From positions 2,914,001 through 2,978,000 of the forward strand of contig NC_014364.1 in NCBI RefSeq assembly GCF_000143985.1: a stretch of DNA of 64,000 bases. Reading direction: 5' to 3'. This stretch comes from Sediminispirochaeta smaragdinae DSM 11293 (GTDB taxonomy: Bacteria; Spirochaetota; Spirochaetia; DSM-16054; Sediminispirochaetaceae). Below the pieces are notes generated by a model that made no database searches, was not told where the DNA came from, and saw nothing but the letters and a program-made list of their open reading frames with translations. The position numbers and the translations under genes were made by a program. Below are positions 25,265-32,102 of this stretch, in pieces. The first letter of the stretch is position 1. The number at the start of each line of letters is the position of its first letter.

Positions 25265-26833
25265 ATGGGCATAACTAATGGCACTGTTATAAAGGTAAAA
25301 GCAGATCAGAGTCTTTTGGAAGCCATACGGGCCGCAGCCCCGGAGGATGTGGAAAGTCCCTGTGGAGGCAGAGGCACCTGCGGGAAATGCAAGATAAGGG
25401 TTCTTGAGGGTAACCCCGGTCCTCCTAGCCCTGAGGAGCGGGGGCTGTTGACACAGCAAGAGATAACGTCAGGCATCAGGCTTGCCTGTCGCTGTACCCC
25501 TGCGAATGATATAACGGTTGCGACCATAGGAAAGAAGGACCATACGATCCTCGACGGAATCGGCCTCCTCTCCCAAGCTCCGGATCCCAGATACAAAGAA
25601 ACAGGAGACTGCGGTATTGCGGTCGATATCGGTACCACAACCGTTGTCGCATACCTTGTTGAATTCTCTCCTCCGGTGCGGGTAACGGCGGTGGAATCCG
25701 CAATGAATGCACAACGACAGTGGGGGGCCGATGTTATCAGCCGGATAACCTTTGCGGGAGAAAAAGGCGAAAATCTTGAAACCTTGTGCTCCGCAATACG
25801 GGGCCAGGTCGACCGGCTCATAAGAAGGCTCATAACGAAAAAAGGTCTCGCCCCCTCTTCGGTACAAGAGATTTCGGTCGTGGGGAATACCACCATGCTG
25901 CACCTTTTTGCCGGTATAGACCCCTCGCCCCTTGGCGTGGCACCGTTCACCCCGGTATTTGTGGAGCAGAGAGTCCTGCCTGCTCAAAGCCTTGATCTCG
26001 CCTACCCAAATGCCATCCTTCGTCTTCTGCCCTCTGTTGCGGCCTATGTAGGAGCCGATATTACCGCGGGAATAGCAGCGGTCGAAATCGACGAGAGCAA
26101 TGAGCTTTCCCTCCTCCTCGACCTGGGGACAAATGGGGAGATGGCTCTTGGTAATAAAGAGCGCATCCTTACCTGTGCCACGGCAGCAGGCCCGGCATTC
26201 GAGGGGGCCGGGATAAGCTGCGGTACAGGGGGCGTCGAAGGCGCCATCGATACCGTTGCCGTGGCAGGTGGTAAGCTCTCGTGGACTAGCATAGGGGACA
26301 CTGCCCCCATAGGGCTCTGCGGATCGGGTATTCTCGATACAGTCTCCGCGCTGCTGACCCTCGGGATCATTGATGAAAGCGGTGCAATGAAAGAACCCTA
26401 CGACAAGGAAGGCTACCCCATTGCACAGACACAAACAGGTGGAAAGATCCTTTTTACCCAAAAAGATGTACGACAATTCCAGCTGGCAAAGGGAGCCGTC
26501 GCCGCCGGCATCGCCGTACTCCTGGAGGCATGGGATGCTGAGGCCTCTGAAATAGCTGCCGTTTACCTTGCCGGAGGCTTCGGGACATTTCTCCGCCCCT
26601 CCTCTGCTCTTGGAGTCGGCCTTCTTCCTCCAGCAGCAGAGGGCAAAATCGTATCGGCAAAAAACAGCGCAGGAAGAGGAGCGGTACGCACTCTTCTCTA
26701 TGCAAGGGAGGCGGAGAGGATAGCGAACATAGCAGAGCATGCCGAATACATAGAATTGAGTACGAATCATCGTTTCCAGGACCACTTTATGGAACAGATG
26801 TTCTTTCCCTCCTATGATCGGGAGAGGCTGTGA
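25265..26833 (+). CDS. RamA/RACE-type reductive activator of corrinoid proteins
   Basis: A 522-residue protein. Residues about 1-85 are a 2Fe-2S ferredoxin domain (CGGRGTCGKCKIRV, later RLACRC). The rest is the ASKHA-fold activator domain of the DUF4445/RACE family: VDIGTTTVVAYLV, VVGNTTMLHLF, LLLDLGTNGEMAL, GLCGSGILDTVSALL, AGGFGTF. Such proteins use ATP and a low-potential electron to reduce inactive Co(II) corrinoid to Co(I), so that methyltransferases can resume turnover. There is no ribosome site before the ATG, and a TATACC hexamer ends eight bases upstream, so a leaderless transcript is possible. It overlaps the PocR-AraC gene (TGATG). Short by about 100 residues relative to some RamA proteins. 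Confidence 0.88.
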   Translation: MGITNGTVIKVKADQSLLEAIRAAAPEDVESPCGGRGTCGKCKIRVLEGNPGPPSPEERGLLTQQEITSGIRLACRCTPANDITVATIGKKDHTILDGIGLLSQAPDPRYKETGDCGIAVDIGTTTVVAYLVEFSPPVRVTAVESAMNAQRQWGADVISRITFAGEKGENLETLCSAIRGQVDRLIRRLITKKGLAPSSVQEISVVGNTTMLHLFAGIDPSPLGVAPFTPVFVEQRVLPAQSLDLAYPNAILRLLPSVAAYVGADITAGIAAVEIDESNELSLLLDLGTNGEMALGNKERILTCATAAGPAFEGAGISCGTGGVEGAIDTVAVAGGKLSWTSIGDTAPIGLCGSGILDTVSALLTLGIIDESGAMKEPYDKEGYPIAQTQTGGKILFTQKDVRQFQLAKGAVAAGIAVLLEAWDAEASEIAAVYLAGGFGTFLRPSSALGVGLLPPAAEGKIVSAKNSAGRGAVRTLLYAREAERIANIAEHAEYIELSTNHRFQDHFMEQMFFPSYDRERL

Positions 26834-28164
26834 TGGAAGAGTTGCCCTTTCCCAGGCATGTCATGGAAGAGATGAGGGAGCTACTTGAAAAGGCACACCA
26901 GGCGGCCCTTCACTACAAAATAGCAACAGGAGTTCGCTGTGTCGTGATCGATACCGAAGGAAACAGCTTTGAGCCGGATCCGACGGAAATACCCGAATCG
27001 TGCAAGGTCTGTTCTGCCCTGGAAAAGACGGGCGCTGCCGGTACAAATTGCAGGGATCTCCATCTCTACGGTTCCTATCAAGCCGAACGGTTTGGGGGAA
27101 TCTACATCTATTTCTGTCCGATAAGCCTCATCCACTGGGCTAGCCCGATTCTCAGCGACGGAAAAACCGTCGGATCAATGATTGCCGGTCCCGTTACCGT
27201 AATCGGTACCGAAGAGGTGGTGGATGAGATTCTCCGTAAATATCCGTCAGCCTCAAACATACGTCCGATGCTGACGGAGAGTGTCGCCACGGTTCCCCAG
27301 GTAAGCACCGAAAAGGCAAAGAGCCTTGCGGAGGTGCTTATGATGAGTGCCGGCTGGGTATCGGGAGACGACCGGCCCCTTGCGGAGCGAAGAGACAATC
27401 TTGATCTCCAGAGCCGCATATCAGAAGAGATCCAGGAACAGAAAAAGCGTTTCTCTTCGGGAATAGAGGTGCCCGGCTATCCCATCGAGAAAGAACGGGA
27501 ATTGCTTGCCGCCATAAGAGGAGCCGACAAGCAGTCAAGTAAGCGTATTCTAAACGAATTACTTGGTGCGATCTTTTTCTCAAGCGGAGGTCGCTTTGAG
27601 ATTGTTAAATTTCGTACCTTGGAACTACTGGTTCTGTTGAGCAGGGCTGCAATGGAGGGAGGGGCCGACCCCGAACAAAGCCTCTCGCTTAATTTGCGAT
27701 ACATCAGGGATATCGACCGCCTGAGGGACATCGACGAATTGAGCTTCTGGCTCGGCAAGGTGCTCAACCGTTTTATCAATTTGGTATTCACCTTCCGCGA
27801 GGTAAAACACCTTGGAGCGATCGAACGGGCCGTTCGCTATATTCAGCTTCACTATACCGAAAAGGTCACACTTCAGGAGACCGCCGAGGCGGCAGGATTA
27901 TCGCCTGCCTACTTCAGCTCGATATTCAAAGAGGAAATGGGTGTCAGCTTCTCCGAATATGTGAATCGGCTCAAGGTCAGCTATGCCAAGAACCTGCTTT
28001 CTACCACCGAACTTTCCCTTGCCCAGGTGGCCGGACAAAGCGGATTCGAAGATCAGAGCTATTTTTCCAGAATTTTTAAACGTATCGGCGGAGTTTCACC
28101 GGGGCGCTACCGTGAAACAGGGGGAAGACTTCCCGAAGATCGACATACTTTGAAAGATATGTAA
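26833..28164 (+). CDS. PocR-domain AraC-family regulator
   Basis: A 443-residue regulator. Residues about 10-185 are a PocR sensory domain with its cysteine set (SCKVCSALEK, NCRDLH, YFCPISL) and small-ligand pocket (IHWASPILSDGK, MIAGPV). Residues about 335-435 are two AraC helix-turn-helix motifs (LQETAEAAGLSPAYFSSIFK; QVAGQSGFEDQSYFSRIFK). PocR domains sense diols or similar small molecules in relatives. The ATG overlaps the stop of the activator gene. It precedes the riboswitch-controlled corrinoid genes and is the probable activator of the whole set, responding to the methyl donor or a derivative. This role is inferred. Confidence 0.88.
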   Translation: MEELPFPRHVMEEMRELLEKAHQAALHYKIATGVRCVVIDTEGNSFEPDPTEIPESCKVCSALEKTGAAGTNCRDLHLYGSYQAERFGGIYIYFCPISLIHWASPILSDGKTVGSMIAGPVTVIGTEEVVDEILRKYPSASNIRPMLTESVATVPQVSTEKAKSLAEVLMMSAGWVSGDDRPLAERRDNLDLQSRISEEIQEQKKRFSSGIEVPGYPIEKERELLAAIRGADKQSSKRILNELLGAIFFSSGGRFEIVKFRTLELLVLLSRAAMEGGADPEQSLSLNLRYIRDIDRLRDIDELSFWLGKVLNRFINLVFTFREVKHLGAIERAVRYIQLHYTEKVTLQETAEAAGLSPAYFSSIFKEEMGVSFSEYVNRLKVSYAKNLLSTTELSLAQVAGQSGFEDQSYFSRIFKRIGGVSPGRYRETGGRLPEDRHTLKDM

Positions 28165-28229
28165 AAATCTCACCACCTGTCTAAATATTTTACAATACTA
28201 CGCCACTGGCCCATTCTATGCTACAAGTA

Positions 28230-28375
28230 CAAAACAACCGGCCATCTTCGGGGGAAGCGGGGTGAAATGCCCCCACGAGCCCGTCACTGTAAGCGCGGAC
28301 AACCTTGCAGAAAGCCACTGGTACTTTGAATACCGGGAAGGCGCAGGGAAGGCTGAAACGCAAGTCAGGATATCC
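28230..28375 (+). ncRNA. Cobalamin riboswitch
   Basis: The leader of the corrinoid gene contains the conserved cobalamin riboswitch elements in order: GGGGTGAAATGCCCCC, GTCACTGTAAGC, AAGCCACTGG, GGGAAGGC and AAGTCAGGATA. The ends are approximate. I see no T-tailed terminator between the aptamer and the ATG at 28450, so control is more likely at translation through the AAGGAG site at 28437. It controls corrinoid-using genes, not synthesis or transport genes. Confidence 0.9.
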
Positions 28376-28449
28376 CGATATTGGCTATCGCTAAAAGATG
28401 TCTCGAGGAAAGGACGGAACGGCGAAGCTTACGATTAAGGAGCGTAGCA

Positions 28450-29085
28450 ATGGCAGACATGATGCAATTGTCCGAGTTCCTGCAGAAGGGCCGGGCAAAA
28501 GAGGTAAAAGAGCTGGTCCAGCAGGCCATCGATGAGGGAATGAGTGCGAAAGCGATCCTTGAAGGTGGCCTGATGCATGGCATGGGTATCATCGGTGAGA
28601 AGTTCAAAAAAAACGAGATTTTTGTTCCTGAGGTATTAATCGCCGCCAGGGCCATGAATGCAGGGACCGAGCTGCTCAAACCCTTGCTTATCGAAGACGG
28701 CGTGGAAACAAAGGGAACCGTGGTCATAGGAACGGTTAAGGGTGACCTCCACGACATAGGTAAAAATCTGGTTGCGATGATGATGGAAGGGAAGGGAATG
28801 AAGGTTGTCGATTTGGGCAGCGATGTTTCCGCTGAAAAGTTCGTAGAGGCGGCACAAGAGCAAAAAGCGAATATCATCGCCTGCTCTGCACTGCTCACCA
28901 CTACCATGAATCAGATGAAGAACGTGGTAAAGGCTGTCGAAGATGCCGGTCTACGGGATTCAGTTAAGATCATGGTGGGCGGCGCTCCGGTAACCGAATC
29001 CTTCTGCGAGAATATTGGTGCCGACCGCTATACGGCGGATGCCGCTACCGCTGCAGAAACAGCAGTAGAGCTCTGTCAAAAGTAG
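28450..29085 (+). CDS. Corrinoid (B12-binding) methyltransferase protein
   Basis: A 211-residue corrinoid protein of the MtaC/MtbC/MttC and MetH-cobalamin-module type. Residues about 1-85 are the helical cap (GLMHGMGIIGEKFKK). Residues about 88-211 are the Rossmann B12 domain with the base-off signature GDLHDIGKN, whose His101 replaces the lower axial ligand, plus CSALLTTTM and GGAPV for the nucleotide tail. It carries the methyl group between two methyltransferases. The ATG follows AAGGAGCGTAGCA and lies about 75 bases after the riboswitch. The UroD-type methyltransferase follows after 35 bases. Confidence 0.93.
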   Translation: MADMMQLSEFLQKGRAKEVKELVQQAIDEGMSAKAILEGGLMHGMGIIGEKFKKNEIFVPEVLIAARAMNAGTELLKPLLIEDGVETKGTVVIGTVKGDLHDIGKNLVAMMMEGKGMKVVDLGSDVSAEKFVEAAQEQKANIIACSALLTTTMNQMKNVVKAVEDAGLRDSVKIMVGGAPVTESFCENIGADRYTADAATAAETAVELCQK

Positions 29086-29120
29086 CAAAACACGCAAAGA
29101 GTAAGCATGAGGAGTACTGA

Positions 29121-30470
29121 ATGACGGGAAAAGAACGAATCGCAAAGGTTATGGCCAACCAAAAGACCGATAAAATCCCCTGGGTTCCCTTTGCCGGTGT
29201 ACATGCGGGTAAGCTTAAGGGCTACAATGCCAAAGAGGTTTCATGTGATCTTGAAAAGCTGGTCGAAAGCCTGCTTGAAGTACACAGGATCTATGAGCCG
29301 GACGGCCAGCCGGTGGTTTTCGATCTGCAGATAGAGGCAGAAATCCTCGGCTGTGATCTGGTCTGGGCAGATGATGCTCCTCCCACGGTCTCCAGCCATC
29401 CCTTATCCGAAAGCGATGAGATCCCGACCGCCATTCCCGCTCCCGACGAGGGGCGGCTTCCCATGGTCCTCGAGGCGATGCGTCGAATGAAAAAGGAGGT
29501 GGGAAAGGATACGGCTCTCTATGGGCTGATCTGCGGCCCCTTTACCCTTGCAAGCCATCTTCGGGGAACAAACATCTTCATGGACATGATGCTGGAGCCG
29601 GAAAAGGTGGAAAAGCTCCTTGCCTACACCCTGGAAGTAGCAAAGGCAATGAGCGGATACTATGTTGAGACGGGAATGGACGTTATTGCCGTCGTGGACC
29701 CCCTAATCAGTCAGATCAGCCCCGCCCACTTCGACCAGTTTATGGCCGCCCCATTTTCCCGGCTTTTCGATCATATCAGAGGACTTGGAGCGTTTTCCAG
29801 TTTCTTCGTCTGCGGTAATGCCACAGCCAATATCGAGCCCATGTGTAAAACCGGGCCGGATTCCATTTCCGTCGATGAAAATGTCGACCTTGCCGCGGCA
29901 AAGCAGATTACCGACCGCTACAATATCGTGATCGGAGGGAATATTCCCCTTACAACGGTAATGCTTTTCGGCACCCAGCAGGACAACATGAAGGCGACCC
30001 TGGACCTCATCGATTCTGTGGATCCGAAAAACCTTATTGTCAGTCCCGGCTGTGATATGCCCTACGACACCCCCATCGAGAACAGCGTCGCGATCGGCCA
30101 GACCCTTAGGCAACCGGAGCTATCCCGGCAGATGATCGCCAATTACCAGAAAGAGGATCTGGTTTTCGAAGGCGAACTTCCCGACTACGACACACTGCCC
30201 CGCCCGCTCGTTGAGGTCTTTACCCTGGACTCGGCCACCTGTGCTGCCTGTACCTACATGCTGGCCAGCGCAATGGATGCCAAAGCACATTTCGGCACGG
30301 CCATCGATGTGGTGGAGTACAAATACACAACTCCTCAGAACATCGCACGCATGGCGAAGATGGGGGTAAAACAGCTGCCGAGCATCTATATAAACGGCAG
30401 GCTGGCCTACTCCTCCATCATTCCCGGCAGGGAAGAACTTATTGCAAACATAGGTGCACATCTGTCATGA
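29121..30470 (+). CDS. UroD/MtaA-like corrinoid methyltransferase with thioredoxin-like C-terminal domain
   Basis: A 449-residue fusion. Residues about 1-345 are a uroporphyrinogen decarboxylase-fold methyltransferase of the MtaA/MtbA/CmuA group (MTGKERIAKVMANQKTDKIPW start, YGLICGPFTLASHL). In characterised MtaA/MtbA the zinc site is HxC plus a distant Cys; here it reads F229-V-C231 and C311 (SPGCDMP), so the histidine is replaced by phenylalanine. Residues about 365-449 form a thioredoxin-like domain with CAAC (374-377) and a cis-proline region (GVKQLPSIYING). The methyl acceptor could be a thiol, possibly handled by the fused domain. Its stop overlaps the GTPase start (ATGA). Confidence 0.83.
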   Translation: MTGKERIAKVMANQKTDKIPWVPFAGVHAGKLKGYNAKEVSCDLEKLVESLLEVHRIYEPDGQPVVFDLQIEAEILGCDLVWADDAPPTVSSHPLSESDEIPTAIPAPDEGRLPMVLEAMRRMKKEVGKDTALYGLICGPFTLASHLRGTNIFMDMMLEPEKVEKLLAYTLEVAKAMSGYYVETGMDVIAVVDPLISQISPAHFDQFMAAPFSRLFDHIRGLGAFSSFFVCGNATANIEPMCKTGPDSISVDENVDLAAAKQITDRYNIVIGGNIPLTTVMLFGTQQDNMKATLDLIDSVDPKNLIVSPGCDMPYDTPIENSVAIGQTLRQPELSRQMIANYQKEDLVFEGELPDYDTLPRPLVEVFTLDSATCAACTYMLASAMDAKAHFGTAIDVVEYKYTTPQNIARMAKMGVKQLPSIYINGRLAYSSIIPGREELIANIGAHLS

Positions 30471-31426
30471 CGTCCAACACCTCCAAGCTGCTGTTGATTA
30501 CCGGTTTTCTCGGGTCTGGGAAAACGACCCTGCTGAATCGGCTCCTTAGCCTCCTGGAAGCTAAAAAAGTCGGCGTTATCGTCAACGAGTGGGGAGCAAT
30601 GAACATTGATGCATCACTGATCGAGACAAAGGGGGAAGATCAGATCGTGGAACTCTCCGGGGGGCAGATTTTTTGTAGCTGCCTTTCGGGCTCCTTCGTC
30701 GAATCGGTGGTGGCAATGGCGGCAAGAGGTCCCGACTACATTCTGACCGAGGCTTCGGGCCTGGCAAAGCCATCGGTTCTCTCCTCTATCATTGCCGAGG
30801 CGACAAAGCGGGCAGAGGGGAGGCTTATATACGATGGGACCATCTGCATCATCGATGCAGAACGATTTCTGACCCTGCGCCAGGCAGTAAGAGCCATCGA
30901 CGAGCAGGTGGTATATGCCGATCGCTACCTCATCAACAAATGCGACCTCGTCGATGAAGCGAGGATTACGGAGATCAAGGAAGTAGTGGCTTCCCTCGGT
31001 CCCGGAAAGCCGATGTACACCGTCACCGAGGCAAAGATTAATGCTGAAATTCTGACGGGGGATGCTCAAAGTTTCACCATGAAGCCCAATGTGAGGTATA
31101 AGGGTTGGGGAGCCTGCGGAAGGCCCAGTTCCTGCGTCTTGCGAACAACATCACCAGTTGATCCCGAAAAACTGCATGCATTTCTCATAGAGGCCAAACG
31201 CTTCGCCTTCAGGCTGAAAGGATACCTACCGCTTGCTCCTGAAGGGTTGCTCCACTTGGTGGATTGCAGCGATTCGCAGATTTCCATACGGCCAGCTACC
31301 TTCGGCACAGGGGGAAAAAGGGAAGAGGGCCTTGTGGTGATCGGCAAAAAACTCGCTCCTCCGAACCAGGAGGTAATTACCGGCTGGAAGCAGCAGGTGG
31401 GAACGGATATCTATATCGAAGAATAG
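30467..31426 (+). CDS. CobW/G3E-family GTPase (COG0523 metallochaperone type)
   Basis: A 319-residue P-loop GTPase of the G3E family. GFLGSGKTTLLNRLL is Walker A, VIVNEWGAMNID switch I region, the metal site GQIFCSCLSGSF stands where most relatives have CxCC, TEASGLAKP is Walker B region, and NKCDLVD the base-recognition motif. A C-terminal domain of about 100 residues follows. Family members insert metals or cofactors, or gate cobalamin loading of mutases. Being translationally coupled to the methyltransferase, it probably loads zinc into it or corrinoid into the carrier protein. Which one is inference. Confidence 0.85.
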   Translation: MTSNTSKLLLITGFLGSGKTTLLNRLLSLLEAKKVGVIVNEWGAMNIDASLIETKGEDQIVELSGGQIFCSCLSGSFVESVVAMAARGPDYILTEASGLAKPSVLSSIIAEATKRAEGRLIYDGTICIIDAERFLTLRQAVRAIDEQVVYADRYLINKCDLVDEARITEIKEVVASLGPGKPMYTVTEAKINAEILTGDAQSFTMKPNVRYKGWGACGRPSSCVLRTTSPVDPEKLHAFLIEAKRFAFRLKGYLPLAPEGLLHLVDCSDSQISIRPATFGTGGKREEGLVVIGKKLAPPNQEVITGWKQQVGTDIYIEE

Positions 31427-31427
31427 C

Positions 31428-32102
31428 ATGGAAAAGCACTGCATAGAGGCAAAAGAGTTTACCATTCCCTTTGAAACCCTTGCCAGAAGAGTCAGACTCG
31501 ATCTCGCCCCGGATATGGAAGGTCCCTTGCGAGGGCTTCTGGAAGCGGCATTGAAGATCGCCCGCCCCCGGGGAATCTGGATGACAACATATATAGAAAA
31601 AAGAGACAATAAGGGATTTAACAGTGGAGGCGAACGCTTTTCCAGTAGCCTTGCCGCAAGAAACGTGGCAGAGGTGCATCGTATCTTTCCCTACCTCGTC
31701 ACCTGCGGTCCGGAGTTCGATGAAATGGAACTGCCGGGAACGGATATGCTCGAAGGCTTTTGGCTCGATGAAATGAAGGAACTCGCCCTCGGAGCCGCCC
31801 TCAAGGCGGTCAGAACGGATCTGCGCACGACCCATAAGACCACGGCCCTCCATTCCATGAACCCGGGATCGGGGAACATCGATGTTTGGCCCATCGAAGA
31901 ACAGCGCCCCCTTTTCAGGCTCATCGGAGAAGATGCCCAAAGATGGAGCGGTGTCACATTGACCGATTCGCTGCTCATGGTGCCGAACAAAAGCATATCA
32001 GGCTTCTTTTTTACCGGAACTTCCAATTATGAGAGCTGCGCCTACTGTGACAGGCATGACTGCCCGGACCGCAGGGCCCCCCGCCTCCGCGTTAAAGCCT
32101 AA
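31428..32102 (+). CDS. MetH-activation-domain-like protein
   Basis: A 224-residue protein resembling the S-adenosylmethionine-binding activation domain of cobalamin-dependent methionine synthase, found here as a separate protein. The core runs from VRLDLAPDMEG through TCGPEFDEME, LHSMNPGSGNIDVWPIEEQ, to VTLTDSLLMVPNKSISGFFF, the last resembling the MetH activation signature. The tail has a cysteine cluster, SCAYCDRHDCPDRR, suggesting a metal or Fe-S site not present in MetH. It is the last gene of the corrinoid operon, one base after the GTPase stop. A second reactivation route for oxidised corrinoid, beside the RamA-like protein, is likely. Confidence 0.78.
   Translation: MEKHCIEAKEFTIPFETLARRVRLDLAPDMEGPLRGLLEAALKIARPRGIWMTTYIEKRDNKGFNSGGERFSSSLAARNVAEVHRIFPYLVTCGPEFDEMELPGTDMLEGFWLDEMKELALGAALKAVRTDLRTTHKTTALHSMNPGSGNIDVWPIEEQRPLFRLIGEDAQRWSGVTLTDSLLMVPNKSISGFFFTGTSNYESCAYCDRHDCPDRRAPRLRVKA

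Follow-up and report, generated by a model that had tools for sequence, protein, structure and literature searches.

In the classic three-component corrinoid systems (MT1, corrinoid protein, MT2), a methyltransferase of the MttB, MtmB or MtaB type loads the corrinoid protein; MtaA, a thiol methyltransferase, and MtbA are methylcobamide:coenzyme M methyltransferases. Members of the UroD superfamily can also load corrinoid proteins, namely the O-demethylases and chloromethane dehalogenases MtvB, OdmB, VdmB, CdmB and CmuA (PMC13222342), which pair with a folate methyltransferase, and MtsA of Methanosarcina, which works with the corrinoid protein MtsB, is cited in PMC10418091 as catalysing both half-reactions, with no separate loader needed. 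The type 1 mlp clusters of anaerobes (Kountz and Balskus 2023, PMC10418091) combine at least Mlp2 and Mlp3, MtaA-like proteins with a His-Cys-Cys site, with a corrinoid protein and a Ram/RACE activase, and contain no folate methyltransferase. Here we analyse a 64,000-nucleotide window of Sediminispirochaeta smaragdinae DSM 11293 (positions 2914001-2978000 of the complete 4,653,970-bp chromosome), in which an operon at 25265-32102 encodes, head to tail and all on the + strand, a RACo/RamA-like activase, a PocR-AraC regulator, a corrinoid protein, a UroD-type methyltransferase with a C-terminal thioredoxin domain (UroD-Trx), a G3E GTPase and a MetH-activation-domain-like protein. It seems to be a variant of these systems that has not been described, with ordinary parts arranged around an unusual central enzyme.

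We find that UroD-Trx (29121..30470, + strand; MtaA/CmuA type; Pfam URO-D, 203 bits, and Thioredoxin_3) is nearest to MtaA in both sequence and fold, at about 23% identity: MtaA (4ay7) is the top Foldseek match (TMt 0.88) of its AlphaFold2 model (pLDDT 91.2), and the score against TIGR01463 is 151 bits, below the cut-off of 235. The thioredoxin domain covers residues about 361-449 and carries the motif TCAAC (C374/C377); Thioredoxin_3 is detected in 23 of 30 relatives. The positions that read His-Cys-Glu-Cys in MtaA are F229, C231, E253 and C311 in this protein and Phe-Cys-Glu-Cys in 38/38 fused sequences examined, among which both metal-site cysteines and both thioredoxin cysteines are invariant, whereas the zinc-ligand His is retained in MtaA and in 19/19 unfused UroD proteins compared. 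UroD-Trx thus keeps the Cys, Glu and Cys of the MtaA/MtbA site but has Phe for the His, so that the His-Cys-Cys zinc site of the MtaA/CmuA methyltransferases is incomplete, and it has gained a domain. The fused protein is all-or-none, with open frames of about 450 residues, barring fragments cut at contig ends, and in the search for it the next match falls from E near 1e-134 to 1e-38. Since loss of the His coincides exactly with the fusion, the alignment suggests that the thioredoxin domain makes up for the lost zinc ligand. A stronger version, in which a thioredoxin cysteine replaces the His at the metal and also acts as methyl acceptor or relay, would give a folate-free and coenzyme-M-free acceptor half-reaction serving several methyl donors in bacteria and Asgard archaea, and we regard it as rather improbable. 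The first-pass annotation of this DNA, which was made from the sequence alone, had recognised the UroD/MtaA-like type of the protein but overlooked both the thioredoxin domain and the His-to-Phe change. A literature search, subscription journals being outside it, returned no description of the UroD-thioredoxin fusion, no paper joining UroD, thioredoxin, corrinoid protein, methyltransferase and GTPase, and none joining UroD with CobW and a corrinoid. MtsA is not known to carry a thioredoxin fusion.

UroD-Trx was located at 39 loci, 28 from a search of a genome collection and 11 from a search of the phylum, with one genome probably sampled twice; the phylum search found it in 11 of 393 spirochaete genomes. 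Together with the G3E protein it occurs across Spirochaetes, Firmicutes, Chloroflexi and Hodarchaeota, in hosts that include, besides the marine oil-field spirochaete S. smaragdinae, Eubacterium callanderi, Parasporobacterium and Pelolinea. A G3E gene adjoins that of UroD-Trx in 31/39 loci, and within 9 kb a corrinoid protein is encoded in 20/39, RACo in 20/39 and the MetH-like protein in 12/39; MttB lies near UroD-Trx in three loci (L075, L076 and L086) and MtmB in three (L074, L087 and L089). The earlier description of activator, regulator, riboswitch, corrinoid protein, UroD protein, G3E protein and MetH-activation-like protein as one rightward set is borne out, all parts being found on the + strand. 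The same set is found again at other loci, far beyond chance. Across these gene neighbourhoods, the conserved core of the module is UroD-Trx plus G3E, and the loader is its variable part. The G3E (CobW/COG0523) GTPase itself (30467..31426, + strand; Pfam cobW, 134 bits, and CobW_C, 37 bits; CxC motif in GGQIFCSC) is likely a metallochaperone for UroD-Trx.

No MTTB, MtmB or MtaB was found in the whole S. smaragdinae genome (MtbB was not searched for), which extends genome-wide, for these three families, the absence of an adjacent substrate methyltransferase recorded in the first pass and leaves the genome without the MttB, MtmB or MtaB of a classic three-component system. Its corrinoid proteins are two only, that of the operon and MetH, which leaves an MtbB-type enzyme no partner corrinoid protein but the one in the operon. 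The other two cobalamin riboswitches adjoin B12 synthesis and transport genes rather than a loader, and for the families searched, the ordinary split system that the first pass had held open, with an MttB- or MtaB-type gene under the same riboswitch elsewhere, was not found in this genome. A folate acceptor was likewise sought genome-wide: MtrH was not found, and the sole Pterin_bind protein is MetH, far from the operon. A separate dihydropteroate synthase was not detected in the genome at the threshold used. The lack of an MttB or MtaB is not enough on its own to make a system new, and the premise that an MttB/MtbB/MtaB loader is required does not hold, because UroD proteins load corrinoids (PMC13222342) and MtsA does both half-reactions (as cited in PMC10418091).

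We favour, tentatively and with somewhat less than even confidence, a self-contained, folate-independent corrinoid methyl-transfer module in which UroD-Trx exchanges methyl with a sulfur compound and, in this genome, serves both sides. That the UroD protein might work on both sides had been raised in the first-pass annotation as an option, and it remains the leading reading in a genome with no MttB/MtmB/MtaB-type gene. UroD-Trx would bind a soft (sulfur) substrate at its Cys/Glu/Cys metal site, into which the G3E protein would load the metal, and would exchange methyl between the corrinoid protein, in its Co(I)/methyl-Co(III) states, and a thiol or thioether, acting on both sides in S. smaragdinae as MtsA is cited to do in Methanosarcina; the dithiol of the fused thioredoxin could keep the site or the substrate reduced, or help to handle the thiol. 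Corrinoid oxidised to Co(II) would be restored by RACo, using electrons from its 2Fe-2S domain and ATP, together with the MetH-activation-like protein, and at loci beside MttB or MtmB genes UroD-Trx would act as the acceptor-side enzyme. The sulfur substrate, the two-sided methyl transfer, the roles of thioredoxin and G3E and the joint reactivation are all points that we infer. A thiol or other sulfur substrate is suggested because UroD-Trx is nearest to MtaA and both site cysteines are invariant, retention of Cys/Cys being a soft-ligand signature (PMC10418091). S. smaragdinae lives strictly anaerobically and makes sulfide by reducing thiosulfate and sulfur (PMC3035371), which we count in favour of this reading. 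The likeness to MtsA/MtsB lies in one UroD-type protein working with one corrinoid protein; MtsA differs in having a His-Cys-Cys site (PMC10418091) and in using coenzyme M, which is not known in S. smaragdinae.

Several observations weigh against this reading. With Phe at the MtaA zinc-ligand position, the enzyme may not behave like MtaA; the operon holds no sulfur-metabolism gene; several loci have UroD-Trx without a corrinoid gene nearby; and the missing half could come from the genome's seven further UroD paralogues. In a census of 34 genomes, one of which (G376) has an operon remnant only, MTTB is present in 13/34 and MtmB in 12/34, and some relatives thus use a separate loader; neither is present in 13/34, including S. 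smaragdinae and most of the spirochaetes that share this operon. Because UroD-Trx and G3E are constant while the loader varies, we read these counts as a sign that UroD-Trx takes the acceptor side in genomes that have a loader and fills both roles in S. smaragdinae. A split system, in which UroD-Trx is acceptor-side only (to a thiol or sulfide) and a UroD paralogue or an unrecognised family loads the corrinoid from elsewhere, is the rival to be taken most seriously, though we judge it unlikely. It would account for the MttB and MtmB genes beside UroD-Trx in other bacteria, for the MTTB genes that lie away from the operon in relatives G224 and G261, and for the seven paralogues, but those paralogues whose contexts were inspected sit among genes for transporters, a sugar kinase, an amidohydrolase and an aldehyde dehydrogenase, with no corrinoid gene, and make no obvious partners, and both the lack of MTTB, MtmB and MtaB from the genome and the confinement of the remaining cobalamin riboswitches to B12 genes argue against it.

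Some loci with loader-type genes have features of their own. L089:3605-6217 and L087:3880-6477 encode RACo proteins of ~870 residues with a C-terminal partial UroD domain carrying an HxCGK motif (with a URO-D match in L089), and both loci also hold TAG-interrupted MtmB and pyrrolysine-like genes. Many MtmB-family genes of these genomes, e.g., L074:3940-5316, contain no in-frame TAG, which implies no pyrrolysine use there. At L124:7895-12145, an MTTB-family gene is flanked by genes for a BPD_transp_2 permease and an FGGY sugar kinase; no gene for a corrinoid protein was seen close by.

It is improbable that UroD-Trx is purely a substrate-side demethylase acting on an ether, halide or other donor like MtvB, CdmB and CmuA, with the methyl group leaving via MetH or an unknown acceptor. 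The UroD superfamily does contain O-demethylases and haloalkane dehalogenases (PMC13222342), MtvB, OdmB, VdmB, CdmB and CmuA are likewise UroD-type enzymes paired with a corrinoid protein, and PocR sensor domains occur with the dichloromethane mec genes (PMC9768040); however, every UroD-Trx keeps both site cysteines, whereas O-demethylases swap one or both for carboxylates or non-ligands (PMC10418091), the genome has no MtrH/MtgA-type folate acceptor of the kind with which those enzymes pair, and there would be little reason for a second loading enzyme next to MttB and MtmB. That the operon is a type 1 mlp-like system, or recycles methyl-selenium, we consider very unlikely: the MtaA-like protein, the corrinoid protein and Ram/RACE activase encoded in the same direction, and the lack of a folate methylase within 20 kb (PMC10418091) are shared, but there is one MtaA-like protein where at least two are expected, with Phe for the metal-site His, a thioredoxin fusion and G3E and MetH-like partners, and SelA was not found in the S. 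smaragdinae genome and is present in no more than roughly half of the 34 genomes.

The two reactivation proteins lie at the ends of the operon. The product of 25265..26833 (+ strand) has the N-terminal 2Fe-2S ferredoxin domain, RACo middle domain and RACo C-terminal ASKHA domain of a RACo/RamA-like corrinoid reductive activase (Pfam PF14574, 240 bits; PF17651, 169 bits; PF00111, 39 bits; NCBIfam AcsV-like, 388 bits, under cut-off). The stand-alone MetH-activation-domain-like protein (31428..32102, + strand) matches PF02965 at 25.3 bits against a cut-off of 25, and its nearest solved relative is TM0269 of Thermotoga maritima (1j6r; profile search, E 1.5e-18; Foldseek top match, prob 1.00), which Huang in 2007 is said to have reported to reactivate T. 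maritima MetH. RxxxGYP, the S-adenosylmethionine (AdoMet) binding motif of E. coli MetH, is absent from the MetH-like protein, where the corresponding stretch is MNPGSGNIDVWPIEEQ, with similar residues in close relatives; most members of the family end in a Cx2Cx4C tail whose three cysteines are invariant in 16/16 aligned. Whereas TM0269 serves MetH, the S. smaragdinae protein, with this tail, is linked to RACo and a separate corrinoid protein. In L077 a MetH-activation-like domain precedes RACo in a single fused protein, from which we take the two proteins to be probably one machine, acting jointly on the corrinoid protein and not as competing routes; both of the different reactivation proteins seen in the first pass are present, but their separateness as routes is doubtful.

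The least tenable reading, alongside the mlp-like one, is that the module serves methionine synthase, by repairing MetH or by replacing it through methylation of homocysteine: its MetH-like protein is similar to TM0269 and to the activation domain of MetH, and in L064 a relative of that protein is encoded together with a homocysteine S-methyltransferase and a corrinoid protein, but S. smaragdinae MetH is full length with a C-terminus that resembles the activation domain, so that a helper encoded by the last gene is probably not needed, the corrinoid protein is separate and dedicated, and UroD-Trx is without the metal-site His that MtaA keeps. In the spirochaete cluster itself (L064:7761-11381), a UroD protein accompanies these three genes; the MetH-like family is therefore not tied to UroD-Trx, and the cluster is a possible folate-free route to methionine.

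The rest of the operon is regulatory or encodes the corrinoid protein. The regulator gene (26830..28164, + strand; PocR sensory domain, Pfam PF10114, 73.9 bits; AraC helix-turn-helix, PF12833, 82.4 bits) has a GTG start that overlaps the RACo stop. A cobalamin riboswitch (RF00174, 28251..28375, + strand, 81.8 bits) lies between it and the corrinoid protein gene, as at the equivalent place in loci L047, L048, L049 and L065; a putative Shine-Dalgarno hairpin there, considered as a clue to the ON/OFF sign of control, does not outscore shuffled sequence and on visual inspection is not common to relatives. The MtgC/MtbC-like corrinoid protein (28453..29085, + strand; 210 residues; Pfam PF02607 and PF02310; NCBIfam MtgC_2, 227 bits, under cut-off) has the His-on motif DLHDIG (in DLHDIGKN) and begins at the ATG at 28453 behind AGGAG, the longer open reading frame from a TTG not marking the real start. 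Since the genes overlap or abut by a few bases, they likely form one transcription unit. Locus L045 (G376:C13:117000-134000), from the sister species, has a G3E gene cut short at about 9400, at a boundary with phage-like genes (terminase-like and head protein-like); the tail of G3E persists together with the MetH-like gene, and UroD-Trx was not found in that genome.

UroD-Trx offers a concrete protein with which to address where corrinoid methyl groups go in anaerobes that have neither folate nor coenzyme M as acceptor. The fusion is widespread, always minus the same zinc ligand, always with both cysteines and usually with its own G3E GTPase, and the operon suggests that a RACo activase and a MetH-type reactivation domain can be combined to reactivate a corrinoid.

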